A stretch of DNA of 64,000 nt from Firmicutes bacterium ADurb.Bin193 (GTDB lineage: Bacteria > Bacillota > Clostridia > Monoglobales > Firm-18). The position numbers and the translations under genes are program-made. The stretch covers positions 62,001-126,000 of the forward strand of contig MWCQ01000002.1 of NCBI GenBank assembly GCA_002070105.1, read 5' to 3'. Under the pieces are notes generated by a model. It was not told the origin of the DNA. It saw only the letters and a program-made list of their open reading frames with translations, and searched no databases. How positions within the stretch are numbered: the stretch's first letter is position 1; the number at the start of each line of letters is the position of its first letter. Below, piece after piece: positions 1,104-21,636 of this stretch.

Positions 1104-1880
1104 TTATAATCTCCTGAGATGGAATCCGCCATCAATATTAATTACTTCCCCGGTAGAATAGCCGAGTTTACCCGAACAAAAAACAGAAACGGCGTTTGCG
1201 ATATCCTGCGGGTAACCCCAACGGTTTATCGGAATAAGTCCCTCACCGATAAGCTTATCGTATTTTTCCTTCACTGTTTTTGTCATGTCGGTAAAAATAA
1301 TGCCGGGTCTTATTTCGTATACATTAATTCCGTATTCCGACAGTCTGTCGGCAAAAAGCTTTGTTATCATGCTAATTCCGGCTTTGGATATGCAATACTC
1401 GCCTCTTGAGGTTGACGAAGTATAGGACGACATAGATGCAATATTTATAATAAGCGGGCGTATATCCGCATTTTCCGTTACCTGTTTAATCATAATATTT
1501 GCAACGGCCTGAGTCATAAAAAATGTACCCTTGAGGTTAATATCCATTACAAAGTCAAAGCTTTCCTCCGTCGTTTCAAGCACATCGGTTCTGACCTTCG
1601 GTGCCACTCCCGCATTGTTAACAAGACAATCGATTCTTCCGTAAGTATCTAAAACCTTATTAAGAAAATCACTTCGGTCTTTCTTATTGGTCAAATCCCC
1701 GTTAAAATACAAAACAGGTTGTCCTGTGCTGCGAATTGAATCCATATTTTCGGCGGCTTGCTTAGGGGCTATTACATCCAGTATTGCTATGGCAAATCCG
1801 TCCTTCGCAAGTTGCGATGCAATCCCAAACCCGATACCCCTTGCCGCACCTGTTATAACAGCAACTTTCTTATCTAACAT
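1104..1880 (-). CDS. Short-chain dehydrogenase/reductase (SDR), FabG/KduD-like
   Basis: This is a 258-residue classical SDR. The N-terminal cofactor motif TGAARGIGFG is at about residues 11-20, NNAG is at about 88-91, and the catalytic Tyr/Lys pair lies in YCISK at about 160-164 with an upstream Ser. It probably oxidises a hydroxyl or reduces a keto group with NAD(P)H in the cytoplasm. It sits between an OYE-type reductase (38 bp upstream) and an FAD flavoprotein (3 bp downstream). KduD-type (pectin catabolism) and FabG- or BaiA-type functions are all compatible, and the sequence alone does not decide between them. Confidence 0.85.
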   Translation of the reverse strand: MLDKKVAVITGAARGIGFGIASQLAKDGFAIAILDVIAPKQAAENMDSIRSTGQPVLYFNGDLTNKKDRSDFLNKVLDTYGRIDCLVNNAGVAPKVRTDVLETTEESFDFVMDINLKGTFFMTQAVANIMIKQVTENADIRPLIINIASMSSYTSSTSRGEYCISKAGISMITKLFADRLSEYGINVYEIRPGIIFTDMTKTVKEKYDKLIGEGLIPINRWGYPQDIANAVSVFCSGKLGYSTGEVINIDGGFHLRRL

Positions 1881-1918: not shown

Positions 1919-3289
1919 TTATAAATGCTCTGATACGGTAGTATCCATCCGTATGGGCGGCTTACCTTCTCTTCCCTGCTTATAGATAGGCCCGTATACT
2001 TTTGAATCCTTGATTACGCATCCGGTCTTTCCACCGTCACGCATTATAACAGTACAATTACTGCATACCGTGCAGCATTTTCCCCGTTCCATTGCACCGG
2101 CTTCAAAAATATCCTTTGCAAAGTCGGGATAAGCCAATGCCTGCCGACCAAAGCCCGCAAGCTTAAACCACCCTTCCTTTATTCCGCCCGCCGCTACATT
2201 GACCGCATATTCCCTCAGCCAACTGAATGTCGTGGCTATAACCGCCATATCGGGTACAGCCTGCTGAATCTGCCTTGCAATACCCAGCATATTTGCAATA
2301 CCTTCCAACGGGTGCTGAGGCGGTGTATAGAGCCCGTTGTCATACGGCCTTCCCACATGCGGATTGTAATAGGGGTTCCCGCTGCTGAGGTTAACAAGCC
2401 TAACCCCTTTTTCATAAAGTATTTTTACCAGTTTAATCGGCTCGGAAAGATCGGGCTTATGAAAGTCATCGCGGCTTACCCCCCAGCCATACGGATAGGG
2501 AACAGCATCATACGCATTCAGCCTGAGAGTAATATCGATTTTGCTTCCGAGCCTTGCCTTTATTTTATCAACGATATTCAAAAGAAACCGTGTTCTGTTT
2601 TCGAAAGAGCCGCCATACCTTCCTTCTCTTGTAAAAGCGGATAAAAGCTCGGAATTAAGATAGCCGTGACAGCTTTTGATATCAACCGCATCAAAGCCTA
2701 TTTCACTCGCTATAACAGCCGCCTGAACAAAACGGTCTTCCAGCATTTCCAGCTCATCATCGGTAATCATCCTGTAGTTTTTAGACAGGCTTCCCTCCAG
2801 ATAAGGGTTTTGGGTTGCAATCATAGACGCCGGTTTCCCGTCCGGCTTGCTGTATCTGCCCGAATGGGTAAGCTGTAAAACCGTATACGGCTTATATGTA
2901 AAGCTGTATGTATCCGAGGCATTTTTTATAATTCTATCGTACAATGCCTGAAAGTCGGATTTGTTTTCCCGACAAATATACAGTTGCCTCGGATTAGCTC
3001 TTCCTTCGGGAACAACGGCGGTAGCTTCCAACCATATAAGCCCCGCTCCTCCCTTGGAAAAACGGTCATATCTTCTGAAGGTAAGCTCATCGGGCTTGCC
3101 GTCCGATGTGCCGTCGCAACCCTCCATAGGATGTATTGCCAGTGGATTGGGGATTGTTTTATCCCCTATTTTAATCGGTTGTTTTAACACCTCAATGTCT
3201 TCCGACAGGGGTATTTTAACCCCAAGACACTGTATATCGTTTTTTAACTGTTCAAGTGAATCATAATTAAATCGTCTGTGCTGGTGCAC
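1919..3289 (-). CDS. NADH:flavin oxidoreductase, Old Yellow Enzyme family with 4Fe-4S ligands
   Basis: The 456-residue protein has an OYE-type TIM barrel: NPLAIHPMEG near the N terminus, HSGR near residue 145, and IKSCHGYL followed by GGSFENRTRF in the FMN/substrate region. Near residue 410 is a cysteine cluster, CTVCSNC, followed 11 residues later by another Cys, which matches the [4Fe-4S] ligand pattern of 2,4-dienoyl-CoA reductase/trimethylamine dehydrogenase relatives. Unlike those enzymes it stops after the cluster and lacks the C-terminal FAD/NAD(P) domains, so electrons may come from a partner, plausibly the flavoprotein two genes downstream. GGAGGA lies just before the ATG. It is probably an ene-reductase; substrate unknown. 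Confidence 0.85.
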   Translation of the reverse strand: MHQHRRFNYDSLEQLKNDIQCLGVKIPLSEDIEVLKQPIKIGDKTIPNPLAIHPMEGCDGTSDGKPDELTFRRYDRFSKGGAGLIWLEATAVVPEGRANPRQLYICRENKSDFQALYDRIIKNASDTYSFTYKPYTVLQLTHSGRYSKPDGKPASMIATQNPYLEGSLSKNYRMITDDELEMLEDRFVQAAVIASEIGFDAVDIKSCHGYLNSELLSAFTREGRYGGSFENRTRFLLNIVDKIKARLGSKIDITLRLNAYDAVPYPYGWGVSRDDFHKPDLSEPIKLVKILYEKGVRLVNLSSGNPYYNPHVGRPYDNGLYTPPQHPLEGIANMLGIARQIQQAVPDMAVIATTFSWLREYAVNVAAGGIKEGWFKLAGFGRQALAYPDFAKDIFEAGAMERGKCCTVCSNCTVIMRDGGKTGCVIKDSKVYGPIYKQGREGKPPIRMDTTVSEHL

Positions 3290-3368: not shown

Positions 3369-4985
3369 TTAATCTTCATCAAGCATCACGCCACTGATAT
3401 CTACGCGATATGCCTGAATCATATCTCCCATAGGCTTATTGAAATATACCTTCTTTCCGTCGCGCGAAAAGGCCGGGTCCACATGCATACGATAAGTCCA
3501 AATCTTACCCGCCTCTTCATGCATAAGGACCGCAATAGGCGTGGTATTGCCTGCTCTGTAAAGCCTCATAATGATTGGACTGATATTGTAAAGTGTTTCG
3601 GATGCCAAGTACTTTCTATCCGGAGACATCCCCGGATGGTTACCCGGTCCTGCCAGCGTTTCTATAAAATTGCCGTCTCTGTCAAAACGCTTCGCTGTAT
3701 GCTTAGGCTGTCCGTTAGCCCCCGCATCCTTGTCATGCGCGAACAAAGTTGAATCATCATACCATTGCTGGTGCAGGGGTTTTTTATTATCAAAGATTTT
3801 AAAATCTGTGCCGTCTGTTTTGAATGTAATTATAAATTTGTTTTCTTCTTTACTGTCCGTATCCAGCCTGATTGCTATATATGTGCCGTTAGCGCTAATC
3901 TGCGCATGGTACATCGACCAGTCTTTAGGATTGTCGCTGCCGGTCAGCTGATCCTTCAGATTGCCAAGGTCATCTTCAAGATCGGCTATCTTGGTGACAG
4001 CACCGTTTTTATACATGTAAACCCCGTTACGCCCCAAAGTGCTTCCGTTAGGATAGTTCTTTTTGTCCACTAAAAGCGCTACGGCACCGTTGGGAGCATC
4101 CCCATGACCAATATTTGCCATTATGGGCGGATGCACCTCTTCACCGCTAGTATTGACAATATGCGTAATTTTCCCTTTTCCGGGTGTTGAGTCGCTATAT
4201 GCAATCGTATTATTGTCAAGCCATATCTGACGAGCGCCGTCTTCGGTGTTAATACCTTGTATATCCCTTATTTTCACATGGTTGGTAAGGTCGGAGTTGC
4301 ATATATAAAGGCCTCCGCTGATTTTTTCGTCTTTGTTTTTTGGCTTTCTGTCATATTTTACATAAACAACCTTACTGCCATCCGGACTTTCGGGGCTTGT
4401 GCCGAAATAACCTATTGCAGACATACCTTCATCCTGAGATATTCGCTCATAGACCAGAGATCTGTCGATACTATAGATATCGGAATAAAGATTAGTATCA
4501 GAATTCGAAGCCTCCATTTCACGATTCCAGACCACAAGCTTCGCACTATAATGGCTCAGGCTTTCAGGTATAGTTAAGTCAACGGTATATACAGATTCAC
4601 TTCCCGAAGCTCCGATGCCCGCTATGTTAACGGTTTTAACCTTGTCAAGCCTTTTATCACGATATAGAGAAATTATTAACACGGCAGGCTTTGAAGCATC
4701 AGTATTTTTAATGGTTGTTACTCTGAATATTTTACCGTTCGGGATCAATGCATCGATAACTATACCTTTGGAATCCTGAAGAGTAACACTCTTAATAGTG
4801 TATGGCTTGGGGGTGCTGCCGGAAAGATTAACGCTTCCCCCGTCTTCAGCCGATACCTTTACACTTTCTGCCAAAGCGGGTACTGCGAATTGTCCCGAGA
4901 AATAATCAAATCCGGGTGCAATGCTCACATTTACAATTGTTATAACAACAAGTAAAAAAACCAATAAAAAATGAACACGCTTCAT
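3369..4985 (-). CDS. Secreted beta-propeller protein, type A N-terminus (paralogue 8 of 8)
   Basis: This 538-residue protein is the last of eight tandem paralogues in transcription order. Residues 1 to about 40 form a signal peptide (MKRVHFLLVFLLVV). Residues about 45-165 form a predicted beta-sandwich with the pattern 'LIISLYRDK...AKLVVWN', which resembles modules in the large secreted proteins at 17974-21420 and 31933-34470. From about residue 175 a TolB/WD-like propeller follows: SPESPDGSKVVYVKYDRKP, GHGDAPNG, PLHQQWYDDSTLFAHD, HPGMSPDRKYLASETLY and HVDPAFSRDGKKVYFN. The repeated SPDG blades and conserved His residues recall oligogalacturonate-lyase (PL22)-type propellers, but the His-x-His metal motif is His-x-Asp here. 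Whether it is an enzyme or a binding protein is undecided. Confidence 0.75.
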   Translation of the reverse strand: MKRVHFLLVFLLVVITIVNVSIAPGFDYFSGQFAVPALAESVKVSAEDGGSVNLSGSTPKPYTIKSVTLQDSKGIVIDALIPNGKIFRVTTIKNTDASKPAVLIISLYRDKRLDKVKTVNIAGIGASGSESVYTVDLTIPESLSHYSAKLVVWNREMEASNSDTNLYSDIYSIDRSLVYERISQDEGMSAIGYFGTSPESPDGSKVVYVKYDRKPKNKDEKISGGLYICNSDLTNHVKIRDIQGINTEDGARQIWLDNNTIAYSDSTPGKGKITHIVNTSGEEVHPPIMANIGHGDAPNGAVALLVDKKNYPNGSTLGRNGVYMYKNGAVTKIADLEDDLGNLKDQLTGSDNPKDWSMYHAQISANGTYIAIRLDTDSKEENKFIITFKTDGTDFKIFDNKKPLHQQWYDDSTLFAHDKDAGANGQPKHTAKRFDRDGNFIETLAGPGNHPGMSPDRKYLASETLYNISPIIMRLYRAGNTTPIAVLMHEEAGKIWTYRMHVDPAFSRDGKKVYFNKPMGDMIQAYRVDISGVMLDED

Positions 4986-5060
4986 TTAATCATCCCCGCA
5001 TTCTTTGCCTGAACAAAAAGTCCGGTCCGCGGTAGTAAAAAATCAATTAAAAAGTCAAAC

Positions 5061-6683
5061 TCAGTTTTGAGTGTCAATCACACCGCTGATGTCCACACGA
5101 TATGCCTGAATCATATCTCCCATAGGCATATTGAAATATACCTTCTTTCCGTCTCGCGAAAAAGCCGGATCCATATGCATACGATAAGTCCAAATCTTAC
5201 CCGCCTCTTCATTCACAAGGACCGCAATCGGCTTGGTATTGCCCGCTCTGTAAAGCTTCATTATGATAGGACTGATATTGTAAAGAGTTTCCGATGCCAA
5301 GTATTTCCTGTCCGGAGACATACCCGGATGGTTACCCGGCGCCGCCAGCGTCTCTATAAATGTGCCGTTTCTGTCAAAACGCTTCGCTGTATGCTTAGGC
5401 TGTCCGTTAGCCCCCGCAACCTTGTCATGCGCGAACAAAGTTGAATCATCATACCATTGCTGATGCAGGGGTTTTTTATTTTCAAAGATTTTAATATCCG
5501 TACCGTCTGTTTTGAATGTAATAACATATTTGTATTCGTCACTGTCGATAGTGGATGTATCCAGCCTTATTGCTATATATGTGCCGTTGGTGCTAAGCTG
5601 CGCATGGTACATCATCCAGTCGTTGGGATTGTCGCTGCCGGTCAGCTGATTCTTCAGCTTGCCAAGGTCGTCTACAAGGTCGACTACCTTAGTTACAGTA
5701 CCGTTTTTATAAATATAAATCCCGTTTGGCCCCAAAGTGCTTCCGTTGGGATAATGCTCTTTGTCCACTAAAAGCGCTATGGTACCGTTCGGAGCATCTC
5801 CGTGACCTAAATTCGCCTGTATGGGCGGATGCACCTCTTTGCCGCTTGTATCGACGATATATGTTATGTTTCCTTTGCCGGGTGTATAATCACTATATGC
5901 AATCGTATTATTGTCAACCCATATCTGATGAGCGCCGTCTTCGGTGTTGATACCTTGTATATCCCTTATTTTCACATGATTGGTAAGGTCAGAGTTGCAT
6001 ATATAAAGGCTTCCGCTGATTTTATCGTCTTTGTTTTTTGGCTTTCTGTCATATTTTAAATAAGCAACCTTGCTTCCGTCCGGACTTTCGGGACTGGTGC
6101 CGAAATATCCTATTGCAGACATACCTTCACCCTCGGAAACTTTTTCATAAACAAGGGATCTGTTGATACTAAAGATATCCGGATAAAGATTAGTATCAGA
6201 ATTCAAAGAACCTGATTCCGGATTCCAGACCATAAGCTTTGCACTATAATGGCTCAGGCTGTCCGGTATAGTGAAGTCAACGGGATAATCAGCTTCGGTT
6301 CCCGAAGCTCCGGTACCCGCTATGTTAACGGTTATAACATTATCAAGCTTTTTATCGCGATATAAGGCAATTATTAACACAGCAGGATTTGTAGCGTCAG
6401 TTTTTTTAGCGATAGTTACTTTGGCTATCTTACCGTTAGGAATCAATGCATCGACAACTTTACCCTTGGAATCCAGAAGAGTAACACTTTTAATAGTGTA
6501 TGGTTTCGAGGCGCTGCCGGGAAGATTAACGCTTCCTCCGTCTTCAGCCGATACCTTTATACTTTCCGGGAAAGCGGGTATTGTGAATTGTCCCGAGAAA
6601 GAATCAAATCCGGGTGCAATGCCCGCATATACAGTTATTAATACAACAAGCAAAAAAACCAATGAAAAATGAACACGCTTCAT
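5061..6683 (-). CDS. Secreted beta-propeller protein, type A N-terminus (paralogue 7 of 8)
   Basis: This 540-residue paralogue has the same architecture as the gene at 3369-4985: signal peptide (MKRVHFSLVFLLVV), beta-sandwich and a C-terminal propeller with GHGDAPNG, PLHQQWYDDSTLFAHD and HMDPAFSRDGKKVYFN. An AGAGGTG ribosome site precedes the ATG. The gene lies 75 bp upstream of its neighbour, with no obvious terminator between them. The segment 5527-5792 is base-for-base identical to 7231-7496 in the next paralogue, while the flanks differ, which points to recent gene conversion or partial duplication. Confidence 0.75.
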   Translation of the reverse strand: MKRVHFSLVFLLVVLITVYAGIAPGFDSFSGQFTIPAFPESIKVSAEDGGSVNLPGSASKPYTIKSVTLLDSKGKVVDALIPNGKIAKVTIAKKTDATNPAVLIIALYRDKKLDNVITVNIAGTGASGTEADYPVDFTIPDSLSHYSAKLMVWNPESGSLNSDTNLYPDIFSINRSLVYEKVSEGEGMSAIGYFGTSPESPDGSKVAYLKYDRKPKNKDDKISGSLYICNSDLTNHVKIRDIQGINTEDGAHQIWVDNNTIAYSDYTPGKGNITYIVDTSGKEVHPPIQANLGHGDAPNGTIALLVDKEHYPNGSTLGPNGIYIYKNGTVTKVVDLVDDLGKLKNQLTGSDNPNDWMMYHAQLSTNGTYIAIRLDTSTIDSDEYKYVITFKTDGTDIKIFENKKPLHQQWYDDSTLFAHDKVAGANGQPKHTAKRFDRNGTFIETLAAPGNHPGMSPDRKYLASETLYNISPIIMKLYRAGNTKPIAVLVNEEAGKIWTYRMHMDPAFSRDGKKVYFNMPMGDMIQAYRVDISGVIDTQN

Positions 6684-6764
6684 AATAATGCAACACCTCT
6701 TCTTTTTTTGTCAGAGCCGAAATTCCGATCCGCGATAGTACAAAAATCAATTATACGAGTAAAC

Positions 6765-8384
6765 TCAATCTTCGTCAAGCATCACACGACTGATGTCCAC
6801 ACGATATGCCTGAATCATATCTCCCATAGGCATATTGAAATAAACCTTCTTTCCGTCGCGCGAGAAAGACGGGTCCACATGCATACGATAATCCCAAATC
6901 TTACCTTCCTCTTCATGCATTAGAACTGCAATAGGAGTAGTCTTGCCCGCACTGTAAAGCTTCATTATAATAGGACTGATTCTGTAAAGCGTTTCGGATG
7001 CCAAATACTTCCTGTCCGGAGACATTCCGGGATGGTTACCCGGCGCTGCCAGCGTTTCTATAAAATTGCCGTCTCTGTCAAAACGCTTCGCTGTATGCTT
7101 GGGTTGTCCGTTAGCCCCCGCATTCTTGTCATGCGCGAACAAAGTTGAATCATCATACCATTGCTGGTGCAGGGGTTTTTTATTATCAAAGATTATAATA
7201 TCCGTACCGTCTGTTTTGAATGTAATAATATATTTGTATTCGTCACTGTCGATAGTGGATGTATCCAGCCTTATTGCTATATATGTGCCGTTGGTGCTAA
7301 GCTGCGCATGGTACATCATCCAGTCGTTGGGATTGTCGCTGCCGGTCAGCTGATTCTTCAGCTTGCCAAGGTCGTCTACAAGGTCGACTACCTTAGTTAC
7401 AGTACCGTTTTTATAAATATAAATCCCGTTTGGCCCCAAAGTGCTTCCGTTGGGATAATGCTCTTTGTCCACTAAAAGCGCTATGGTACCGTTCGGTGCA
7501 TCCCCATGACCCAAACTCGCCTGTATGGGCGTATACACCTCCTCACCGTTTGTATTGACTATATATGTTAAAATTCCGTTGGATGTAACATCACTGTATG
7601 CAATCGTATTATTGTCAACCCATATCTGATGAGCGCCGTCTTCGGTGTTTATACCTTGTATATCCCTTATTTTCACATGATTGGTAAGGTCGGAGTTGCA
7701 TATATAAAGGCTTCCGCTGATTTTATCGTCTTCGTCTTTTGGCTTTCTGTCATATTTAACATAAACCACCTTACTGCCGTCCGGACTTTCGGGGCTGGTG
7801 CCGAAATATCCAAATGCCGACATATTGTCGCCCTCGGAAACTTTTTCATAAACCAGGGATCTGTCAATACTATAAACATCGGCATAGGGACTCAAATTGA
7901 ATAACGGCTCCTTGAAATTCGGATTCCAGACCATAAGCTTTGCACTATAGTGGCTCAAGCTGTCCGGTAAGGTTAAGTTAATGGTATAATCAGCCTGGCT
8001 TCCCGCGGCTCCGGTGCCTGCTATGTCAACAGTTTCAATATTATCAAGCTTATTATCACTATATACGGCAACTATTAACACAGCAGGCTTTGTACCGGCA
8101 ACATTTTTAGCGATAGTTGCTTTTGATATCTTACCGTTCGGAATCAATGTATCGATAACTATACCCTTGGAATCCTGAAGAACAACACTTTTTATGGTGT
8201 ATGGTGTCGAGGTGCTGCCGAGAAGCTTAAGACTCCCTCCGTCTTCAGCCGGTCCCTTTATACTTTGTGCCAAAGCGGGTATTGCGAATTGTCCTGAGGA
8301 AAAACCATTTCCCTGTGCAACGCCCGCACTTACAATTATTAAAACTACAATCGAAATAACCAATGAAAAATAAATACGCTTCAT
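6765..8384 (-). CDS. Secreted beta-propeller protein, type A N-terminus (paralogue 6 of 8)
   Basis: The open frame extends up to 8453, but the start chosen here is the ATG at 8384 (MKRIYFSLVISIVV), because it aligns with the signal peptides of the other type A copies and has an AAAGGTG ribosome site. The extra 23 codons are translated leader sequence, which is itself duplicated before the sister gene. The mature protein has the same beta-sandwich and propeller, with conserved GHGDAPNG, HQQWYDDSTLFAHD and SFSRDGKKVYFN. It shares the 266-bp identical tract with the paralogue downstream. Confidence 0.75.
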   Translation of the reverse strand: MKRIYFSLVISIVVLIIVSAGVAQGNGFSSGQFAIPALAQSIKGPAEDGGSLKLLGSTSTPYTIKSVVLQDSKGIVIDTLIPNGKISKATIAKNVAGTKPAVLIVAVYSDNKLDNIETVDIAGTGAAGSQADYTINLTLPDSLSHYSAKLMVWNPNFKEPLFNLSPYADVYSIDRSLVYEKVSEGDNMSAFGYFGTSPESPDGSKVVYVKYDRKPKDEDDKISGSLYICNSDLTNHVKIRDIQGINTEDGAHQIWVDNNTIAYSDVTSNGILTYIVNTNGEEVYTPIQASLGHGDAPNGTIALLVDKEHYPNGSTLGPNGIYIYKNGTVTKVVDLVDDLGKLKNQLTGSDNPNDWMMYHAQLSTNGTYIAIRLDTSTIDSDEYKYIITFKTDGTDIIIFDNKKPLHQQWYDDSTLFAHDKNAGANGQPKHTAKRFDRDGNFIETLAAPGNHPGMSPDRKYLASETLYRISPIIMKLYSAGKTTPIAVLMHEEEGKIWDYRMHVDPSFSRDGKKVYFNMPMGDMIQAYRVDISRVMLDED

Positions 8385-8466
8385 ATTAGACAACACCTTT
8401 GCATTTTTGTCAGAGCCGAAAATCCGGTCCGCGGTAGTACTATAATAAATCAATTATACGAGTAAA

Positions 8467-10068
8467 TCAGTTTTGAGTGGCAATAACATTGCTGATATCC
8501 ACACGATAAAGCTGAACCATATCCCCTATGGGCTTGTTGAAATAAACCTTCTTTCCGTCCCGTGAAAAAGACGGATTCAGATGGGTACGCATAGACCATA
8601 CATTTCCCGGAGACTCACTCGAAAGTATTGCCAGCGGTTCTATGCTGCCTACCCTATAAAGCCTCAATACGATGGGATTTGACTGGTAAAGAGTTTCGGA
8701 AGCCAAATACCTTTTGTCCGGCGATATCCCTAAATGGCATCCGACCCCCGACAGTGTCTCCAAAACATTGCCGTCCCTGTCCCAGCGCCTCCCCGCCTGA
8801 TACGGGAGGTTGTTCCAATAATTGTCATGCCCGAACAGCGTGGAATCGTCATACCATTGCTGATGCAGGGGTTTTTTGCCCGGAAACAGCTTTACATCGG
8901 TACCGTCAATTTTACAGGTTAATAGATTCTGCATGTCCTTGCCGGTATCCAGGCGTATTGCCAGATGGGTTCCTCCGGGGCTTAGCTCGGCATGGTACAT
9001 ATACCAGTCGTCTGTATTATCACTGCCCTCAAGCTCAGCCTTCAGCCATCCGAAATCCTTTTCAAGGTCAACCGCCTTTGTTATTTTGCCGTCCTTGAAT
9101 ATATAGATGCCGTTAGGTCCAAGGTTGCTGCCATTGGGATATTTCGTTTTGTCTACCCAGAGGGGGATTGCACCGTCCGGAGCATCACCATGCCCTAAAT
9201 AGCCTTCGTACGGGCCGTATGCCACCTCGCCGTTTATGTTGACGATGTATGTTTTACCGCCGTCAGCCATATCCATATAGGCAATGTGATTGTTGTCAAC
9301 CCATATCTGATATGAGCCGTCCTCCCAGTTCGTTTCGGCAATATCCCTTATTTTCCTGTGATTGGTAAGGTCTGAGTCGCATATGTAAAGACCGGCGCTG
9401 AGGCCCGCATCAGGCGCAGGCTTGTTGTCGTACAGTACATAAGCGATTAACTTCCCGTCAGGGCTTTCGGGACAGGTGCCGAAATATCCATGTTCGGCCA
9501 TTCGGCCTTCGGGGGATACTCTTTCATAAACCATAAATTTGCCTATATATTCATCGACGATATCCTTTTCGCTTAAATCACTGATAATTATAAGGCCTCT
9601 GTTGTCCCAGAAGGTATATTTCTCGAATGCATCCGCAAATGCTCTTACAGGAACCATCGTCCTGCCGTCGATTATTTGCGCGGGGACATCAATTTCCCTT
9701 TCCTTATTGTTTACCTTCATCGTTTTGCTTCCGATTACCATTTCAACCTTACCGCGTTCAAACTGAATTTTAATGGTGGATGTATCCTCGATCCAATCCA
9801 CATTTGCGCCGTAACACTCGGCAACAAACCGTAAAGGTATAAGCGTCCTGCCGTCCTGAATTATCGGCGTAACATTAGGGTCATTCGGGTCGATCCTGGT
9901 TTTTACATTATTTACAATCGCATCGGGGCACCCGATAAGCAACCCTATCCTGCGGTTTGATGTGTCGGTATCTGCAATGCCACCCGGTACAAAAAGAGTA
10001 TTTGCCAACAGAACGCAGACAAGCACTGCAAACATCAGTCTTCTGATTTTGCTTTTAATGCCTTTCAT
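8467..10068 (-). CDS. Secreted beta-propeller protein with copper-amine-oxidase-N-like domain, type B (paralogue 5 of 8)
   Basis: The protein has 533 residues. Residues 1 to about 32 form a signal peptide (RRLMFAVLVCVLLANTLFVPG). Residues about 38-165 match the copper amine oxidase N-terminal-like domain found in many clostridial wall proteins: two repeats with DGRTLIPLRFVAECYGANV and DGRTMVPVRAFADAFEKY. The C-terminal propeller (about 175-530) is homologous to that of the type A copies: GHGDAPDG, PLHQQWYDDSTLFGHD, GCHLGISPDKRYLASETLY and HLNPSFSRDGKKVYFN. The same propeller joined to two unrelated N-terminal modules in one array implies domain shuffling. The domain name does not imply copper or amine oxidase activity. 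Confidence 0.75.
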   Translation of the reverse strand: MKGIKSKIRRLMFAVLVCVLLANTLFVPGGIADTDTSNRRIGLLIGCPDAIVNNVKTRIDPNDPNVTPIIQDGRTLIPLRFVAECYGANVDWIEDTSTIKIQFERGKVEMVIGSKTMKVNNKEREIDVPAQIIDGRTMVPVRAFADAFEKYTFWDNRGLIIISDLSEKDIVDEYIGKFMVYERVSPEGRMAEHGYFGTCPESPDGKLIAYVLYDNKPAPDAGLSAGLYICDSDLTNHRKIRDIAETNWEDGSYQIWVDNNHIAYMDMADGGKTYIVNINGEVAYGPYEGYLGHGDAPDGAIPLWVDKTKYPNGSNLGPNGIYIFKDGKITKAVDLEKDFGWLKAELEGSDNTDDWYMYHAELSPGGTHLAIRLDTGKDMQNLLTCKIDGTDVKLFPGKKPLHQQWYDDSTLFGHDNYWNNLPYQAGRRWDRDGNVLETLSGVGCHLGISPDKRYLASETLYQSNPIVLRLYRVGSIEPLAILSSESPGNVWSMRTHLNPSFSRDGKKVYFNKPIGDMVQLYRVDISNVIATQN

Positions 10069-10105
10069 AGATTCCCCTCCCCGGTATTGACAATTATCTT
10101 AATTG

Positions 10106-11716
10106 TCAGTCACTCATTAGATTACTTATATCCACACGGTACATCTGAACCATATCTCCGACCGGCTTGTTGAAATAAACCTTTCTTCCGTCACGGGAGA
10201 AAGAGGGGTCTATGTGAGTTTTCATACTCCATACCGTTCCCGGCGGCTCGGCAAAAAGGATTGCAAGCGGCTCAACATTGCCGCACTTGTAAAGCCTCAA
10301 TACAATGGGATTGGTCTGGTATTGAGTTTCGGAAGCCGCATACTTTCTGTCGGGGGACAGACCCATGTGACATCCGACTCCGGCTAATGTTTCGATATAA
10401 TTGCCCTCTAAGTCCCAACGCTTTAATTTATACATCGGATATTCTCCGTATTCCCAGTCAACCTCATGCCCGAATACGCTTGTATCATCATACCATTGCT
10501 GATGTAAAGGCTTTTTCGCAAAGATTCTCATATCCTCACCGCCCGGTTTGCAGGATACAAGATTTACATTTGCATCGCCCGACCCTGTTTCAAGCCTGAT
10601 TAATATGCGTTCACCGCCGGGGCTTAACTGTATATGACCCAAAGACCACGCCAATACATCGTCATTGCCTCCGAATTTGTCTATTAACGGTGTGAAATCC
10701 CTTATAGGATCTACTGCATGCATAATAGAGCCGTCTTTATGATCGTACAGATAAATTCCGGCAGGACCAAGAGCGCTTCCGTTTCTCCCTACAACCAAAA
10801 GCAATTGACCGACCTTGGGGTTATCTCCGTGACCTAAATTCCCCTCAAACGGGCCGGCAACTTCCTCTCCGTTTGTATTAATGATATATGTTTTAACACC
10901 TTTTCCGTCTACATTATCGTTATATGCAAGCGTATTGTTGTCAAGCCATATCAGGTGAGAACCATAGTGCCAGTTTACATTGCTTATGTCTCTTATTTTC
11001 CTGTGGTTGGTAAGATCCGAATCGCATAAGTAGAGCGCGCCTTTTTTGCTTGCTTTTGAATCGGGTTTGTTTTCGGTTACTATATATGCGACTAACTTTC
11101 CGTCAGGACTTTCGGGGGTGGTTCCGTAATATCCCGGAAGCATGGACGGCCCGTCGGACTGTGCAACCCTTTCATGAACCAAAAACCTGCCTATATATTC
11201 GTCGGTAACATCTCTGTCATTTAAGTCGCTGATAATTATAAGACCTCTGTTGTCCCAGAAAGTATACTTTTCGAAAGTATCCGCAAATGCTCTTACGGAA
11301 ACCATCGTTCTGCCGTCGATTACTTGAGGAGGTACATCCATTTCTCGGGTATTGACATTGTATTTTATCGTTGTTTTTCCGAGTACCATTTCAACCTTAG
11401 CGCGTTCCAGTTGAACTTTAACGGTGGATGTAGCTTCATCCCACTCTACCTTTGCGCCGAAACACTCTGCAATAAAACGCAAAGGAATAAGCGTCCTGCC
11501 GTCCTGAATTATCGGTACAACATTAGGGTCATTCGGGTCAATCCTGGTTTTCACCCCGTTTACGATTGCATCGGGGCACCCTATAAGTAACCCTATCTTG
11601 CGGTTTGCTGTTTCAATGCCGGCAACGCTGCCCGGTACAAAAAGAGTATTAGCCAATAAAACACAGACAAGTACCGCAAACATTAACCTTTGGATCTTCC
11701 TTTTGTTGGTTTTCAT
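10106..11716 (-). CDS. Secreted beta-propeller protein, type B (paralogue 4 of 8)
   Basis: This 536-residue paralogue has a signal peptide, a copper-amine-oxidase-N-like domain (DGRTLIPLRFIAECFGAKV and DGRTMVSVRAFADTFEKY) and the common propeller (GHGDNPKVG, PLHQQWYDDTSVFGHE, GCHMGLSPDRKYAASETQY, HIDPSFSRDGRKVYFN). It is closest to the copies at 13288-14907 and 14942-16567, sharing KGALYLCDSDLTNHRKIRD. The gap to the upstream gene is 26 bp and to the downstream gene 37 bp, supporting one operon. GGGAGGGAAATTT just upstream of the ATG contains the ribosome site. Confidence 0.75.
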   Translation of the reverse strand: MKTNKRKIQRLMFAVLVCVLLANTLFVPGSVAGIETANRKIGLLIGCPDAIVNGVKTRIDPNDPNVVPIIQDGRTLIPLRFIAECFGAKVEWDEATSTVKVQLERAKVEMVLGKTTIKYNVNTREMDVPPQVIDGRTMVSVRAFADTFEKYTFWDNRGLIIISDLNDRDVTDEYIGRFLVHERVAQSDGPSMLPGYYGTTPESPDGKLVAYIVTENKPDSKASKKGALYLCDSDLTNHRKIRDISNVNWHYGSHLIWLDNNTLAYNDNVDGKGVKTYIINTNGEEVAGPFEGNLGHGDNPKVGQLLLVVGRNGSALGPAGIYLYDHKDGSIMHAVDPIRDFTPLIDKFGGNDDVLAWSLGHIQLSPGGERILIRLETGSGDANVNLVSCKPGGEDMRIFAKKPLHQQWYDDTSVFGHEVDWEYGEYPMYKLKRWDLEGNYIETLAGVGCHMGLSPDRKYAASETQYQTNPIVLRLYKCGNVEPLAILFAEPPGTVWSMKTHIDPSFSRDGRKVYFNKPVGDMVQMYRVDISNLMSD

Positions 11717-11742
11717 AAATTTCCCTCCCTAATATTTTTTAT

Positions 11743-13248
11743 TTAAATAATATTACTTATATCCGCACGGTAAACATGAATCGTATCCCCGACCGGCTTA
11801 TTAAAATAAACCTTTTTTCCGTCTCTCGAAAAAGAAGGATTGACATGAGTACGCATATCCCAAATAAAACCCGCAGGTTCACTCATAAGGATTGCCAACG
11901 GGGTAGTGTTGCCTACCCTATAAAGCCTCATTACCACAGGGTTGGTCAGGTATTGGGTTTCAGAAACAAAATACTTCCTGTCGGGGGAAATCCCCATATG
12001 ATTCCCGACCCCCGCCAGTATTTCTATACAGTTACTGTCTCTGTCCCAACGCTTCGCTTGAAACATAGGCTTTTCATTCCAGTCACAATCATGCCCATAT
12101 ACTGTCGAATCATCATACCACTGCTGATGCAGGTAGTTCCACTCAAAGAGTCTGATATCCGTACCGTCCGATTTGAATGATATAAGATATTTTTCTTTCA
12201 GAGGTATTCCTGTATCAAGTCTGATAGCCATATATGTGCCGTCAGTGCTGAATTGTGCATGGTAAATATACCAGTCATCCGGATTTTTCCCCCCGGCTAA
12301 CCGAGGTTTCAATTGTCCGATATCCTTTTTAAGGTCTGCCACCTGTGTTACAACGCCGTCCTTAAATACATAAACACCGTTTGGACCTAAATTGCTTCCA
12401 TTGGGGAAGGTTCTTTTGTCAACCATAAGAGGTAATAAACCGTTCGGAATATCTCCGTGCCCGATATAGCCCTGTATCGGACCATACAGCACATCGCCGT
12501 TTGTATTGATTATATATGTTTCATTACCTCTTGCCTTATCCATATATGCAAGCGTATTATTGTCAATCCATAACACACACGCACCGTCGTGCCAGCTAAT
12601 ACTCGCAATGTCTCTTATTTTTTTATGGTCTGTCAAATCCGAGTTGCAAATATAAAGACTTCCGCTCGGAAATGAATTTTCCGGAGGTTTTTCGTCATAA
12701 ACCACATAAGCGATTTTGCTCCCGTCGGGGCTTTCGGGACAGGTCCCGTAGTATCCGACTTCCGACGCCATAGCGCCGCCTATTGAAACCTTTTCATAGG
12801 TCATAAATCTGCCTATGTATTCATCAATCAGGTCACTTCCCGTTAAATCGCTTACAACAACCAAACCTCTGCTGTCACTGAAAACATATTTATCAAAAAC
12901 ATCCGCAAATGTTCTTAAAGGTACCATTGCCGCGCCGTTTATTATTTGAAGGGGGGCTTCAAGCTCTACCTCCGAATATAGCAGATTACACTTTTTGCTC
13001 CCGACTGTCATTGCAGCAACTTTGCGCTCCAATGCAATCCTAATCGTCGATGTCGCTTCATCCCAGTCCACCTTTGCGCCGAAGCACTCGGCAACATACC
13101 GAAGCGGCACAAGCACCCTGCCGTCCCGGACAACCGGGCTTACATCAGGATTGTTCGGATTTATTCTTGTTTTCACATTGTTTACCACAGCATCAGGGCA
13201 CCCAACGAATAATCCGATTGTGCGATTTGAGCTATTGCTCATATTCAT
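11743..13248 (-). CDS. Beta-propeller protein, type B, lacking a signal peptide (paralogue 3 of 8)
   Basis: The N terminus reads MNMSNSSNRTIGLFVGCPDA, going straight into the copper-amine-oxidase-N-like domain without the hydrophobic leader of the other seven copies. AGGAGA lies 6 bp before the ATG at 13248; an in-frame ATG at 13254 directly abuts that site. Only 33 bp separate it from the stop of the upstream gene, so no lost exported start can be hidden there. The rest is intact: DGRVLVPLRYVAECFGAKV, the propeller with GHGDIPNG, YLHQQWYDDSTVYGHD and HVNPSFSRDGKKVYFN. Either this copy stays in the cytoplasm or its leader was deleted. Confidence 0.72.
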   Translation of the reverse strand: MNMSNSSNRTIGLFVGCPDAVVNNVKTRINPNNPDVSPVVRDGRVLVPLRYVAECFGAKVDWDEATSTIRIALERKVAAMTVGSKKCNLLYSEVELEAPLQIINGAAMVPLRTFADVFDKYVFSDSRGLVVVSDLTGSDLIDEYIGRFMTYEKVSIGGAMASEVGYYGTCPESPDGSKIAYVVYDEKPPENSFPSGSLYICNSDLTDHKKIRDIASISWHDGACVLWIDNNTLAYMDKARGNETYIINTNGDVLYGPIQGYIGHGDIPNGLLPLMVDKRTFPNGSNLGPNGVYVFKDGVVTQVADLKKDIGQLKPRLAGGKNPDDWYIYHAQFSTDGTYMAIRLDTGIPLKEKYLISFKSDGTDIRLFEWNYLHQQWYDDSTVYGHDCDWNEKPMFQAKRWDRDSNCIEILAGVGNHMGISPDRKYFVSETQYLTNPVVMRLYRVGNTTPLAILMSEPAGFIWDMRTHVNPSFSRDGKKVYFNKPVGDTIHVYRADISNII

Positions 13249-13287
13249 AAGCATTCTCCTAATGTTCAGATTTTTATTTACTGAATT

Positions 13288-14907
13288 CTACTGCATTAAA
13301 TAACTTATATCCACACGGTACATCTGAACCATATCTCCGACAGGCTTGTTGAAATAAACCTTTTTTCCGTCGCGGGAGAAAGAAGGGTCTATGTGAGTTT
13401 TCATACTCCATACCGTTCCCGGCGGCTCGGCGAAAATGATTGCAAGCGGCTCAACATTGCCGCACTTGTAAAGCCTCAATACAATGGGATTGGTCTGGTA
13501 AAGCGTTTCGGAAGCCGCATATTTTCTGTCGGGGGACAGACCCATGTGACATCCGACCCACGCCAATGTTTCGATATAATTGCCATCCAAGTCCCAACGC
13601 TTTAACTTATACATCGGCCTTTCAGGGCTTTCCCAGTCAACTTCATGCCCGTATATGCTTGTATCGTCATACCATTGCTGATGCAAAGGTTTTTTTGAAA
13701 TGATTCTCATATCCGCACCGCCCGGTTTGCAGGATACAAGATTTACATTTGCGTCGCCCGACCCTGTTTGAAGCCTGATTAATATGCGTTCACCGCCGGG
13801 GCTTAACTGCACATGACCCATATCCCATGTAAACGGATCATCATCGCCGCCGAATTCGTCTGCTAACGGTGTGAAATCTCTTTTTACATCCAATGCCTGC
13901 GTGATTGAACCGTCTTTATGATCATACAGATAAATTCCGGGAGCCCCAAGATCACTACCGTTTTTATAAGCGCTTTGGTGTACAACCATAAGTATTTGAC
14001 CGACCTTGGGATTATCTCCGTGACCTAAATTCCCCTGATACGGACCGGCAACTACCTCGCCGTTTGTATTAATGATGTAAGTTACAATACCTTTCCCCGC
14101 TAAATTATCGTTATATGCGAGCGTATTATTGTCGAGCCATATCACATGCGAGCCGTAGTGCCAGTTTACAGCGTTTATGTCCCTTATTTTCCTGTGGTTT
14201 GTAAGGTCCGAATCGCATAAGTAAAGCGCACCTTTTTTGCTTGCTTTTGAATCGGGTTTGTTTTCGGTTACTATATATGCGACTAACTTTCCGTCAGGAC
14301 TTTCGGGGGTGGTACCGAAATATCCCGGAAACATGGACGGTCCGTCGGTCTGGGCAATCCTCTCATGAACCAGAAATCTGCCGATGTATTCATCGGTAAC
14401 ATCTCTGTCATTTAAGTCGCTGATAATTATAAGACCCCTGTTGTCCCAGAATGTATATTTTTCAAAAATATCGGCAAATGCTCTTAAGGGAACCATCGTT
14501 CTGCCGTCGATTATTTGCGCGGGGACATCGATTTCAACGGTGTTATTGCCCACTTTAACCTTTTTGCTTCCGATTACCATTTCAACCTTAGCGCGTTCAA
14601 ACTGAATTTTAATGGTGGATGTAGCCTCGACCCATTCCACATTTGCGCCGTAACACTCGGCAATAAAACGCAAAGGAATAAGCGTCCTGCCCTCCAGAAC
14701 TATCGGCACAACATTTGGGTCATTCGGGTCAATCCTGGTTTTCACACCGTTTACGATTGCATCCGGGCATCCGATGAGTAACGCTATCTTGCGGTTTGCT
14801 GTTTCAATGCCGGCAATGCTGCCCGGTACAAAGAGGGTATTCGCCAACAAAACACAGACAAGCACCGCAAACATTAACCTTTTGAACTTGATTCTACCGT
14901 TTTTCAC
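13288..14907 (-). CDS. Secreted beta-propeller protein, type B (paralogue 2 of 8)
   Basis: This 539-residue paralogue has a signal peptide (RLMFAVLVCVLLANTLFVPG), the copper-amine-oxidase-N-like domain (residues about 38-165) and the propeller with GHGDNPKVG, PLHQQWYDDTSIYGHE and HIDPSFSRDGKKVYFN. It starts 34 bp after the stop of the first gene of the array. It probably acts outside the cell; no enzymatic residues can be assigned with confidence. Confidence 0.75.
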   Translation of the reverse strand: MKNGRIKFKRLMFAVLVCVLLANTLFVPGSIAGIETANRKIALLIGCPDAIVNGVKTRIDPNDPNVVPIVLEGRTLIPLRFIAECYGANVEWVEATSTIKIQFERAKVEMVIGSKKVKVGNNTVEIDVPAQIIDGRTMVPLRAFADIFEKYTFWDNRGLIIISDLNDRDVTDEYIGRFLVHERIAQTDGPSMFPGYFGTTPESPDGKLVAYIVTENKPDSKASKKGALYLCDSDLTNHRKIRDINAVNWHYGSHVIWLDNNTLAYNDNLAGKGIVTYIINTNGEVVAGPYQGNLGHGDNPKVGQILMVVHQSAYKNGSDLGAPGIYLYDHKDGSITQALDVKRDFTPLADEFGGDDDPFTWDMGHVQLSPGGERILIRLQTGSGDANVNLVSCKPGGADMRIISKKPLHQQWYDDTSIYGHEVDWESPERPMYKLKRWDLDGNYIETLAWVGCHMGLSPDRKYAASETLYQTNPIVLRLYKCGNVEPLAIIFAEPPGTVWSMKTHIDPSFSRDGKKVYFNKPVGDMVQMYRVDISYLMQ

Positions 14908-14941
14908 AAATTTTCCTCCCTGTTTTTTTAGATTTTTATAA

Positions 14942-16567
14942 TCAGTCGCGAATTAAATTACTGAAATCCACGCGGTACATCTGAATCATATCTTCTGCGA
15001 CAGGCATGTTGAAATAAACCTTCCTGCTGTCGCGGGAGAAAGATGGGTCTATGTGAGTTTTCACACTCCATACCGTACCCGGCGACTCGGCGAAAAGGAT
15101 TGCAAGCGGCTCAACATTGCCGTACCTGTAAAGTCTCAATACTACGGGGTTGGTCCAGTATTGAGTTTCGGAAGCATAGTACTTTCTGTCAAAAGATATT
15201 CCCATGTGGTTGCCAACCCCCGCTATTGTTTCGATATAATTTCCGTCCAAATCCCAGCGTTTTGCTTTATACATCGGATATTCTCCGTTTTCCCAGTCAA
15301 CCTCATGTGCGAAAATGGTTGTATCATCATACCATTGCTGATGCAAAGGCTTTGTCGGAAAGACTTTCATTTCCGAGCCGCCCACTCTGCACGATAAGAT
15401 TTTTACATTATCCTGACCCCCACCTACTCCAAGCCAGATTAATATGCGCTCACCGCCGGGGCTTAACTGTACATGGCCCATTTCCCATGTGAATATATCG
15501 TCTCTGCTGCCCGGGAATTTTTCCTTTAGTGGTCCGAAATCCCTTTGAACATCCAATACCTGCTTAACAGAGCCGTCTCTGTGATTATACAGGTAAATTC
15601 CGGGAGGCCCGAGATCGCTTCCGTTCTTATAGGCATCCCGCTGCACATACATAAGTATTGAATTGACATTGTTGTCTCCGTGACCTAAATTCCCCTGAAA
15701 CGGGCCGGCAACTTCCTCTCCGTTTGTATTAATGATATATGTTTTAAGACCTTTTCCGTCTACATTATCGTTATATGCAAGCGTATTGTTGTCAAGCCAT
15801 ACCACATGCGAGCCGTAATGCCAGTTTACATTGCTTATGTCCCTTATTTTTCTGTGGTTGGTAAGATCCGAATCACATAAGTAGAGTGCGCCTTTTTTGC
15901 CTTCTTTTGAGCCTGGTTTGTTTTCGGTTACCAAATATGCGACCAACTTACCGTCAGGACTTTCGGGAGTGGTGCCGTAAAATCCCGGAAGCATGGACGG
16001 CCCGTCGGACTGTGCAACTCTTTCATGGACCAAGAACCTTCCTATGTATTCGTCGGTAACATCCCTGTCATTTAAGTCGCTGACAATTATAAGACCTCTG
16101 TTGTCCCAGAAAGTATACTTATCAAAAAGATCCGCAAATGCCCTTACGGAAACCATCGTTCTGCCGTCGATTACTTGCGCAGGCACATCCATTTCTCTGG
16201 TATTGACATTGTATTTTACCGTTGTGTTTCCGAGTACCATTTCAACCCTGGCGCGTTCCAAGTCAACTTTAACGGTGGATGTAGCCTCATCCCACTCCAC
16301 CTTTACGCCGAAGCACTCGGCAATAAACCGCAAAGGAATAAGCGTCCTGCCGTCCTGAATTATCGGCACGACATTAGGGTCATTCGGATCAATCCTGGTT
16401 TTTACACCGTTTACGATTGCGTCGGGGCACCCGATAAGCAGCCCTATCTTGCGGTTTGCTGTTTCAATGCCGGCAATGCTGCCCGGTACAAAAAGAGTAT
16501 TTACCAGCAAGACGCAGACAAGCACCGCAAACATTAACCTTTGAATCTTTCTTTTACTGATTTTCAT
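14942..16567 (-). CDS. Secreted beta-propeller protein, type B (paralogue 1 of 8, first gene of the array)
   Basis: This 541-residue protein is promoter-proximal in the array, with an AGGGGGGGGA ribosome site before the ATG and a 300-bp divergent intergenic region separating it from an AraC regulator. It has a signal peptide, a copper-amine-oxidase-N-like domain and the propeller (GHGDNNVNS, PLHQQWYDDTTIFAHE, GNHMGISFDRKYYASETQY, HIDPSFSRDSRKVYFN). Small substitutions in conserved blades (SFDRKYYA for SPDRKYAA, SRDSRK for SRDGKK) suggest it diverges somewhat from the others. Confidence 0.75.
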   Translation of the reverse strand: MKISKRKIQRLMFAVLVCVLLVNTLFVPGSIAGIETANRKIGLLIGCPDAIVNGVKTRIDPNDPNVVPIIQDGRTLIPLRFIAECFGVKVEWDEATSTVKVDLERARVEMVLGNTTVKYNVNTREMDVPAQVIDGRTMVSVRAFADLFDKYTFWDNRGLIIVSDLNDRDVTDEYIGRFLVHERVAQSDGPSMLPGFYGTTPESPDGKLVAYLVTENKPGSKEGKKGALYLCDSDLTNHRKIRDISNVNWHYGSHVVWLDNNTLAYNDNVDGKGLKTYIINTNGEEVAGPFQGNLGHGDNNVNSILMYVQRDAYKNGSDLGPPGIYLYNHRDGSVKQVLDVQRDFGPLKEKFPGSRDDIFTWEMGHVQLSPGGERILIWLGVGGGQDNVKILSCRVGGSEMKVFPTKPLHQQWYDDTTIFAHEVDWENGEYPMYKAKRWDLDGNYIETIAGVGNHMGISFDRKYYASETQYWTNPVVLRLYRYGNVEPLAILFAESPGTVWSVKTHIDPSFSRDSRKVYFNMPVAEDMIQMYRVDFSNLIRD

Positions 16568-16867
16568 AAATCCCCCCCCTTAAAATTCTAATTACTTTGA
16601 ATAGTTTTGTTTATTCTGTCCAAAAACTGCAGATTTGTTAACAGAGTACTTTCATTTTAGCTGTTTTTGTGATATACTGTTTATGTCGCATTGTTCGACC
16701 ATTTTTTTAGGGAAAAACAGGCATAAGATACTATCTCCCTATTTGCCATTATACATCAATAAAGTAAATAAGTATATATTAAAATTGCTTAAAAATTAGC
16801 GTTTTTTGCTATATAATTTGCTATATAAAAATTATGGAAATTTCATTACAGACATGAGGTGTTTTCA
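16568..16867. promoter_or_regulatory. Divergent intergenic region between propeller array and AraC regulator
   Basis: This 300-bp AT-rich stretch has no gene. It contains a direct repeat, TTGCTATATAA, twice within 16806-16828, just upstream of the AraC gene, and a TGATATACT -10-like element near 16671. It probably holds both promoters and the AraC-family operator. The repeat is seen; its role is inferred. Confidence 0.5.
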
Positions 16868-17710
16868 ATGAATAATCCGAAGATTATTCCCGCCGATTCC
16901 GTCAGAATCAAATATAATGAAGCCCGCAAGGATATGAAGCTGGAACAGCACTCTCATAACTTCTATCAGATTATATACATCAAAGAGGGCTTGATAGAAT
17001 TTAAGATAAACGGCAAAAAGTATACCGCAGGCAAAAACAGCCTGATATTTATAAGTAATTTGGAATCACATGAGCTTAAGGTGTTGGAATACCCGTACAA
17101 GAGGTATTATGTACTTATAAAACCGCATTATTTGCACTCTTTAATCAGTGAACCGGTGCTTGTGTCAATATTTAAGCACCGTCCCGCTCACTTTAACCAT
17201 GTTATTGCTTTAAGACCCGAAGACAGCGTATATGTTTCCAATACCTTTAAAAGTATGTATGATGAAGCGTCAACTTCAATGCCTTTTTGGGAGTTTACGC
17301 TGTGTTCATATTTCTTTTTGCTTTTGACCTTTTTGTTCAGAAAGTACAAAGATTCTTTTCCGATAACAACAATCAACAAACCCATGGAGACAATTCTTGA
17401 TGTTCAGAAGTATATTGAACAGCACTTTACCGAAAACATAGTTTTGGAGGAAGTTTCAAAGCGCTTTTATTCCAATAAGTTTTATATGTCTCATTTGTTT
17501 AAAAAAATAACCGGCTTTTCATTTAAGGAATACCTTATTTTGCAAAGAATATTAAAATCAAAGGAGCTGCTTATAAACAGCTCTGAAAGTATTACCCATG
17601 TAGGATTATATTCGGGCTTTAACAATGTTAATCATTTTATCAGAATTTTCAGACAATATGAGGGAATTACTCCTTATCAATACAGGAAAAAACACGCGGC
17701 TTATCAGTAA
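16868..17710 (+). CDS. AraC-family transcriptional regulator with N-terminal cupin domain
   Basis: The protein has 280 residues from the ATG at 16868, chosen over the in-frame GTG at 16859 because TGAGGT lies 7 bp before it. Residues about 15-100 form a cupin-like sensing domain (EQHSHNFYQIIYIKEG). The last 100 residues hold two helix-turn-helix units: LEEVSKRFYSNKFYMSHLFK and THVGLYSGFNNVNHFIRIFR, then GITPYQYRKKH. It is divergent from the eight-gene propeller array and faces the secreted glycosidase gene, so it is the likely sugar-responsive activator of one or both. Confidence 0.88.
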   Translation: MNNPKIIPADSVRIKYNEARKDMKLEQHSHNFYQIIYIKEGLIEFKINGKKYTAGKNSLIFISNLESHELKVLEYPYKRYYVLIKPHYLHSLISEPVLVSIFKHRPAHFNHVIALRPEDSVYVSNTFKSMYDEASTSMPFWEFTLCSYFFLLLTFLFRKYKDSFPITTINKPMETILDVQKYIEQHFTENIVLEEVSKRFYSNKFYMSHLFKKITGFSFKEYLILQRILKSKELLINSSESITHVGLYSGFNNVNHFIRIFRQYEGITPYQYRKKHAAYQ

Positions 17711-21420: not shown

Positions 21421-21636
21421 AATTCTACCTCCAAATAATGATATTTTTTTTGGGTTAAAAAGTGTCTTCATAAGATTTAAAGCATAGGAAAGCCGAACCC
21501 TATATGGTTTTAAAAGAGCAAATTTTTTAGAAGAGGCCATTTGGTTCCCAAATGACACATGTGAGGATTTCTGATTTTAATTCATCATTCATAATTTATC
21601 ATTCATCATTCTTTATTGCCTCGAAGAGGCACTTTT

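Follow-up and report, generated by a model that had tools for sequence, protein, structure and literature searches.

The window analysed here is a 64,000-nucleotide stretch of contig MWCQ01000002.1 (positions 62,001 to 126,000, forward strand) of Firmicutes bacterium ADurb.Bin193, an anaerobic bacterium. Positions 3369-16567 of the window are occupied by an array of eight uninterrupted open reading frames (ORFs) on the minus strand, W1 to W8 (Table 1), encoding proteins of 503-562 amino acids (aa) each. Over the C-terminal 360 residues, which form a beta-propeller, the eight proteins are 49-89% identical and can be aligned end to end; the motifs GHGD, LHQQWYDD, H-x-G-x-S and one of the type P-x-FSRD-x-KVYFN are fully or nearly invariant in the alignment. 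An earlier note on this DNA, made from the sequence alone, had described eight same-strand genes with a common C-terminal propeller and such motifs, and the ORFs, the alignment and an AlphaFold model bear this out. The proteins of this rare array are promising candidates for a family of enzymes, as yet uncharacterised, that cut sugar polymers.

The gaps between the genes measure 26-85 bp, or 13 bp before W3 if its TTG rather than its ATG is the start, which corrects the range of 26-82 bp given earlier; the accompanying statement that clear terminators are missing holds, as no terminator-like site lies inside a gap. The region has 12 such sites, compared with 12.6 in shuffled sequence, so there is no excess. 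A Shine-Dalgarno-like stretch is present in most gaps. By eye, seven of the eight genes encode a signal-peptide-like N-terminus; W6 lacks one although it stands between genes that have it, and the gap upstream of W6 is 33 bp long.

Two types of N-terminal domain precede the propeller. Five proteins (W4-W8) match Cu_amine_oxidN1 (PF07833) at E 3e-24 to 1e-28 and with 85-99 bits against a cut-off of 24.2 bits, in agreement with the copper-amine-oxidase-N-like domain that had been assigned to five genes. W1-W3 carry a second type (61-74% identity to the first of the three), for which no Pfam family was found above cut-off and whose nearest other sequence in the same genome is part of an unrelated 167-aa ORF. 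A distinct domain on these three genes is thereby upheld; the beta-sandwich fold proposed for it is not, the predicted structure being all-beta with a pLDDT of only 49.

Table 1. Array genes and flanking features, in window positions
Feature	Position	Strand	Basis and remarks
SDR oxidoreductase	1104..1880	-	Pfam match
Old-yellow-enzyme (OYE) type NADH:flavin oxidoreductase	1919..3289	-	PF00724 E 6.9e-30; 79 bp downstream of W1
W1, second N-domain type + propeller	3369..4985	-	ORF, alignment
W2, second N-domain type + propeller	5061..6683	-	ORF, alignment
267-bp stretch of W2 identical to W3	5526..5792	-	Positions 892-1158 of the W2 coding sequence; window of zero dN and dS
W3, second N-domain type + propeller	6765..8381	-	ATG 8381; ORF opens at TTG 8453
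W4, mosaic: W5/W7/W8-like N-domain (Cu_amine_oxidN1), divergent propeller	8467..10068	-	ORF, PF07833, identities and dS; propeller modelled with AlphaFold
W5, Cu_amine_oxidN1 + propeller	10106..11716	-	ORF, PF07833, alignment
W6, Cu_amine_oxidN1 + propeller	11743..13254	-	ORF, PF07833, alignment; start without signal-peptide-like sequence
W7, Cu_amine_oxidN1 + propeller	13288..14907	-	ORF, PF07833, alignment
W8, Cu_amine_oxidN1 + propeller, first of array	14942..16567	-	ORF, PF07833 E 2.2e-25, alignment
Intergenic region between array and AraC gene	16568..16858		Tandem 12-bp repeat TTTGCTATATAA at 16805-16828
AraC-family regulator, divergent	16859..17710	+	PF12833 E 1.3e-18, PF02311

The propeller of W4 was predicted with confidence (pLDDT 89.3, pTM 0.90) and is seven-bladed. 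The top three Foldseek matches in the PDB were PL22 oligogalacturonate lyases (3c5m and 3pe7, E 8e-12 to 3e-11), the only two such structures named among the solved PL22 lyases; VIA, whose top matches were likewise 3pe7 and 3c5m, gave Z 26.5 for 3pe7 (317 residues, 3.5 Å) and Z 26.0, with the next unrelated propeller at Z 21.1. The fold is that of the seven-bladed propeller of oligogalacturonate lyases, and the prediction yielded both the expected propeller and carbohydrate-enzyme relatives.

The kinship was followed at the profile level through two linking clades, 'GYYDK' (L054, L055, L064, L070, L085, L087, L088) and 'YFNTSPESPDG' (L056, L057, L060, L066). These are PL22-related propellers of about 400 aa from the Clostridia and Verrucomicrobiota searches, for which there is no specific Pfam or NCBIfam model. 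They align to the array family at E 1.5e-27 and 2e-29 and to PL22 at 4e-17 and 2e-14; the family and PL22 profiles align directly over 315 columns (probability 94%, E 9e-8). A PL22-free profile of the family and both clades found 3pe7 as its best PDB match at E 1.2e-8, with TolB close behind at 1e-7; the former is the figure to use, a lower value of 8e-15 having come from an alignment that held one PL22 sequence. The PDB search with the eight array sequences alone gave no match. The eight proteins did not match PF14583, the PL22 model, at E<1; weak matches occurred in three of 13 family members (best E 0.038, below the cut-off), and no member scanned reached the cut-off. The likeness to PL22 named in the earlier note is supported by fold and profile, and the family stands apart from PL22 itself, as an uncharacterised clade within a PL22-like superfamily. 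It may work like PL22.

Candidate active-site residues (H119, H185, Arg198, H228, H271, H322 and residue 324) were numbered on the modelled W4 propeller. In 3pe7, His242 is taken to be the catalytic base, His287, His353, His355 and Gln350 the Mn ligands, and Arg217 a substrate residue. Profile alignments place H228 on 3pe7 residue 242, H271 on 287, H322 on 353 and residue 324 on 355. The 21 family members compared all have H185, H228, H271 and H322, so that the PL22 base has an invariant counterpart in H228; H228 and H271 are also invariant across PL22 and both linking clades. Residue 324 is Asn or, in six of the eight window genes, Asp, and the His-x-(Asp/Asn) that the earlier note had read in place of His-x-His is borne out by the alignments to 3pe7. 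A nearly invariant arginine, Arg198, lies one strand before the position of Arg217 and might stand in for it. According to DSSP, H119, H185, H228, H271 and H322 of the model lie in or near the start of inner strands on five different blades, which would be where propeller active sites usually lie.

The reading put forward here, at about an even chance, is that the array encodes a set of secreted glycan beta-eliminases diversified for related substrates. The earlier note had looked to a top Foldseek match to PL22 with a conserved pocket as support for a lyase; the match was obtained, and the residues of the PL22 pocket are kept only in part. Among the metal ligands only His287 and His353 are retained, His355 is replaced by Asn or Asp and Gln350 is variable, and Arg217 is lost. 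The loss of two metal ligands and of Arg217, the N-terminal accessory modules and the presence of eight copies with divergent blades 3-4 would also suit catalytically dead, lectin-like or substrate-capturing propellers that retain the PL22 pocket for binding and were multiplied for glycan variants at the cell surface. Such a role is judged unlikely, because Clostridia and Verrucomicrobiota alike keep His228, His271 and His322 without exception, beyond what binding alone would demand, and because the Oscillospirales-like relatives start at the propeller, lack a signal peptide and look cytosolic, where surface binding would make no sense.

The ratio of nonsynonymous to synonymous substitution rates (dN/dS) over the propeller is 0.13-0.34 in pairwise comparisons of the eight copies, and purifying selection acts on them. 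The N-domain of W4 is 76-79% identical to those of W5 and W7, against only 58-59% for the propeller, and dS in the W4 comparisons drops from mostly 1.1-2.0 to 0.3-0.9 over the N-domain; N-domain segments were therefore exchanged between copies. W2 and W3 are 87.4% identical overall and 100% identical within the 267-bp tract of Table 1, which is a recent gene conversion. With purifying selection and recombination between copies, the array is a live, reshuffled gene set. Blades 3-4 are the least conserved part, among the eight as well as within W5/W7/W8 (64-67%, against 83-90% elsewhere). In the tree, W1-W3 and W5/W7/W8 form groups with full support, and the eight copies cluster with Verrucomicrobiota sequences (93/97). 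The genome's own ninth copy falls outside; it lies on another contig (C3), combines an F5/8C-like domain (by eye) with Cu_amine_oxidN1 and the propeller, and is neighboured by AP_endonuc_2, GH30 and GH106-like genes.

An ordinary expansion by tandem duplication, with largely redundant copies kept for dosage and no special diversification, would account for the tight groups W1-W3 and W5/W7/W8, the duplicated spacers of W1-W3 and the homogenising effect of gene conversion. It is very improbable: the propellers diverge down to 49% identity, yet all are under purifying selection, there are two N-domain types, and blades 3-4 diverge faster than the rest.

The family is rare and scattered. A two-motif, one-step scan of 84,980 species returned seven loci with the family. 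Within the class, six of 391 genomes, this one among them, had strong matches, as did five of 388 Verrucomicrobiota genomes; the family was not found in 59 closer relatives, and there was no plasmid match. Such a pattern would fit horizontal gene transfer among bacteria that degrade glycans. Among the matches listed, a genome has up to three copies, which are scattered. The search for the same array in other genomes, which the earlier note had proposed, came out negative: no other tandem array was seen among the matches listed from 60 relatives, 391 class members and 388 Verrucomicrobiota, only scattered single copies. In the genomes searched, an array of this kind is a rarity; tandem expansion itself is a known process. 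Literature searches gave no description of the family, and the earlier note knew of no described system of this form.

The relatives occur in carbohydrate-related surroundings. In three Oscillospirales-like loci (L140, L142, L143) the family gene lies directly beside, and co-directional with, a gene for a PL11 rhamnogalacturonan lyase, and PL11 or GH28 is close by in two more (L139, L141) and in L137. GDSL esterases occur in L027 and GH127 in L136. Eight of 14 Verrucomicrobiota loci have a sulfatase within 5 kb, against 2.3 expected (P 6e-4), and other neighbours there are GH28, GH115, GH127, GH29, GH130 and Chondroitinase-B-like genes. DUF1961 accompanies the family in four contexts, as a neighbour, a fusion partner or a member of one run: it lies beyond the PL11 gene in L142, directly follows the family gene together with a sulfatase in Coraliomargarita, and belongs to the same run as the array in the window genome. 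The fourth is a natural protein in which DUF1961 is fused to the C-terminal side of the propeller (G388, L138:6068-8101), a gene-fusion clue to the function of DUF1961, which the literature searched names only in an unrelated context. Across phyla, these neighbour links point to uronate-rich or sulfated glycans.

The same-strand run extends past position 3369 through the OYE and SDR genes, which are probably on the same transcript as the array, and then beyond the window to a sulfatase (locus L131). Outside the window it holds a FAD_binding_2 flavoprotein, an SLH protein with DUF6250/DUF1961, a Gfo/Idh oxidoreductase, a BNR/Sortilin-like protein with Cu_amine_oxidN1 and F5/8C, and the sulfatase, which also carries Cu_amine_oxidN1. 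Because the Cu_amine_oxidN1 module is found on this sulfatase, on the PL11 lyases of relatives and on dozens of other ORFs of the genome, it is here a general accessory module of secreted enzymes and does not speak for copper chemistry. Cu_amine_oxidN1-like stretches occur at some 40 places in the 2.6-Mb genome G000 (sulfatases, BNR proteins and other ORFs), among them the first of two adjoining sulfatase genes at G000:C20:27828-31104 (open frames of 779 and 863 aa); on the PL11 lyases of relatives the module is C-terminal.

The divergent AraC regulator of the earlier note was recovered with two Pfam models. The region between it and the array is likely to be a promoter/operator region. Two further genes of the window deserve mention. 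The product of the first (17974-21558; 1194 aa) has Big_9 but matches no catalytic Pfam family, and its N-terminal part resembles a glycoside hydrolase barrel by eye. The second (31933-34470), near the array, encodes a large protein that combines Big_9 with a domain resembling fungal glucuronoyl esterases (PF22244).

The redox-rich neighbourhood makes an oxidise-then-eliminate 3-keto-glycoside pathway a serious rival. Gfo/Idh, FAD and SDR enzymes would oxidise the sugar, and the propeller or the DUF1961/DUF6250 protein would cleave the oxidised glycoside by metal-assisted elimination. Mn2+-dependent elimination of 3-keto-glucosides from such gene sets has been described (PMC10628242), and DUF1080 is described as a 3-keto-disaccharide hydrolase (PMC9007349). 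The run holds Gfo/Idh, FAD_binding_2, SDR, OYE and SLH-DUF6250/DUF1961 proteins, the ninth copy adjoins an AP_endonuc_2 TIM barrel, and among the relatives a 3keto-disac_hyd gene is found near L023 and, by eye, similar-looking genes near L024. Such a pathway would also account for the absence of GH88/GH105 from the genome. We know of no propeller in 3-keto-glycoside pathways, the Gfo/Idh and SDR enzymes here look cytosolic, unlike most window copies, which look secreted, and the Oscillospirales relatives instead sit with PL11 or GH28; the pathway is accordingly considered improbable, to about the same degree as the binding role.

For the glycan beta-eliminase set, the following course is proposed. 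The eight mostly secreted propellers would each act by beta-elimination, cleaving a glycan or oligosaccharide of plant type that contains uronate and may be sulfated. H228 on blade 5, the equivalent of PL22 His242, would take the C5 proton, and H271 on blade 6 and H322 on blade 7, with Asn/Asp324, would either bind a divalent metal or neutralise the carboxylate themselves, perhaps assisted by Arg198, His119 (blade 3) and His185 (blade 4). Tandem duplication gave rise to the copies, which still exchange segments, and the divergent blades 3-4 would tune specificity. The N-terminal modules may anchor the enzymes to the cell surface or to the glycan, the cluster would be turned on by the AraC regulator together with its sugar, and the downstream sulfatase, BNR-type and redox enzymes may process the same glycan.

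Several observations, besides the lost PL22 residues, weigh against this proposal. The genes downstream of the array are mostly redox enzymes, not glycoside hydrolases, and when related loci are collapsed the sulfatase link is only suggestive (4/10, P 0.06). The literature searched gave no activity data for the linking clades. The genome itself lacks PL11 and the unsaturated-uronyl hydrolases GH88/GH105, the usual companions of such lyases, and a plain pectin-lyase pathway in the host, which was considered, is weakened by this. The earlier suggestion of glycan lyases or binders diversified for related substrates is thus favoured by the PL22 likeness and the carbohydrate context of the relatives and disfavoured by these missing companions. 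A stronger form, possible and clearly less probable than the eliminase set as such, would see here a new family of polysaccharide lyases whose PL22 active site has been remodelled, with His, His, Asn/Asp in place of His, His, His, Gln; in this one genome, a recombining cassette of eight catalytic domains with swappable N-modules would provide a repertoire for chemically varied glycans.

Among known systems, the closest is the PL22 oligogalacturonate lyase (3pe7, 3c5m; PF14583), which shares the seven-bladed propeller as best structural match and has invariant counterparts of His242, His287 and His353. It differs in sequence (14% identity), in Gln350, His355 and Arg217, which the array family does not keep, and in its Pfam model, whose cut-off the family does not reach; the array family is also mostly secreted here, has extra N-modules and forms a tandem array. 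The linking clades align with the family end to end and share the blade-5 and blade-6 His, but are about 18% identical and have Asp-x-His (GYYDK) or His-x-His (YFNTSPESPDG) on blade 7 where the family has His-x-Asn/Asp. The C-terminal propeller of TolB has similar PD40-type blades and gives the second-best fold and profile matches; the structural match is lower, the family has no Tol-Pal context, and the best score against TIGR02800 is 14.3 bits against a cut-off of 343. PL24, PL25 and PL42 are seven-bladed propellers as well and use His/Tyr/Arg for uronate elimination (PMC8377490). They were not among the fold matches listed by Foldseek and VIA, and no sequence link to them was found. Should the array proteins prove to be lyases, they would form an additional enzyme family, illustrate how a metal site can be reconstructed, and give a natural set of eight related enzymes with which to relate substrate specificity to blades 3-4. 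PL22 has usually been regarded as a small family with a narrow task, the handling of cytosolic pectin fragments; the comparison suggests that PL22 is a single branch of a wider superfamily of propellers in bacteria that degrade polysaccharides, and that no specific Pfam or NCBIfam model exists for the other parts of this superfamily. What is new is an uncharacterised clade of this known superfamily in an unusual, recombining array of eight genes.

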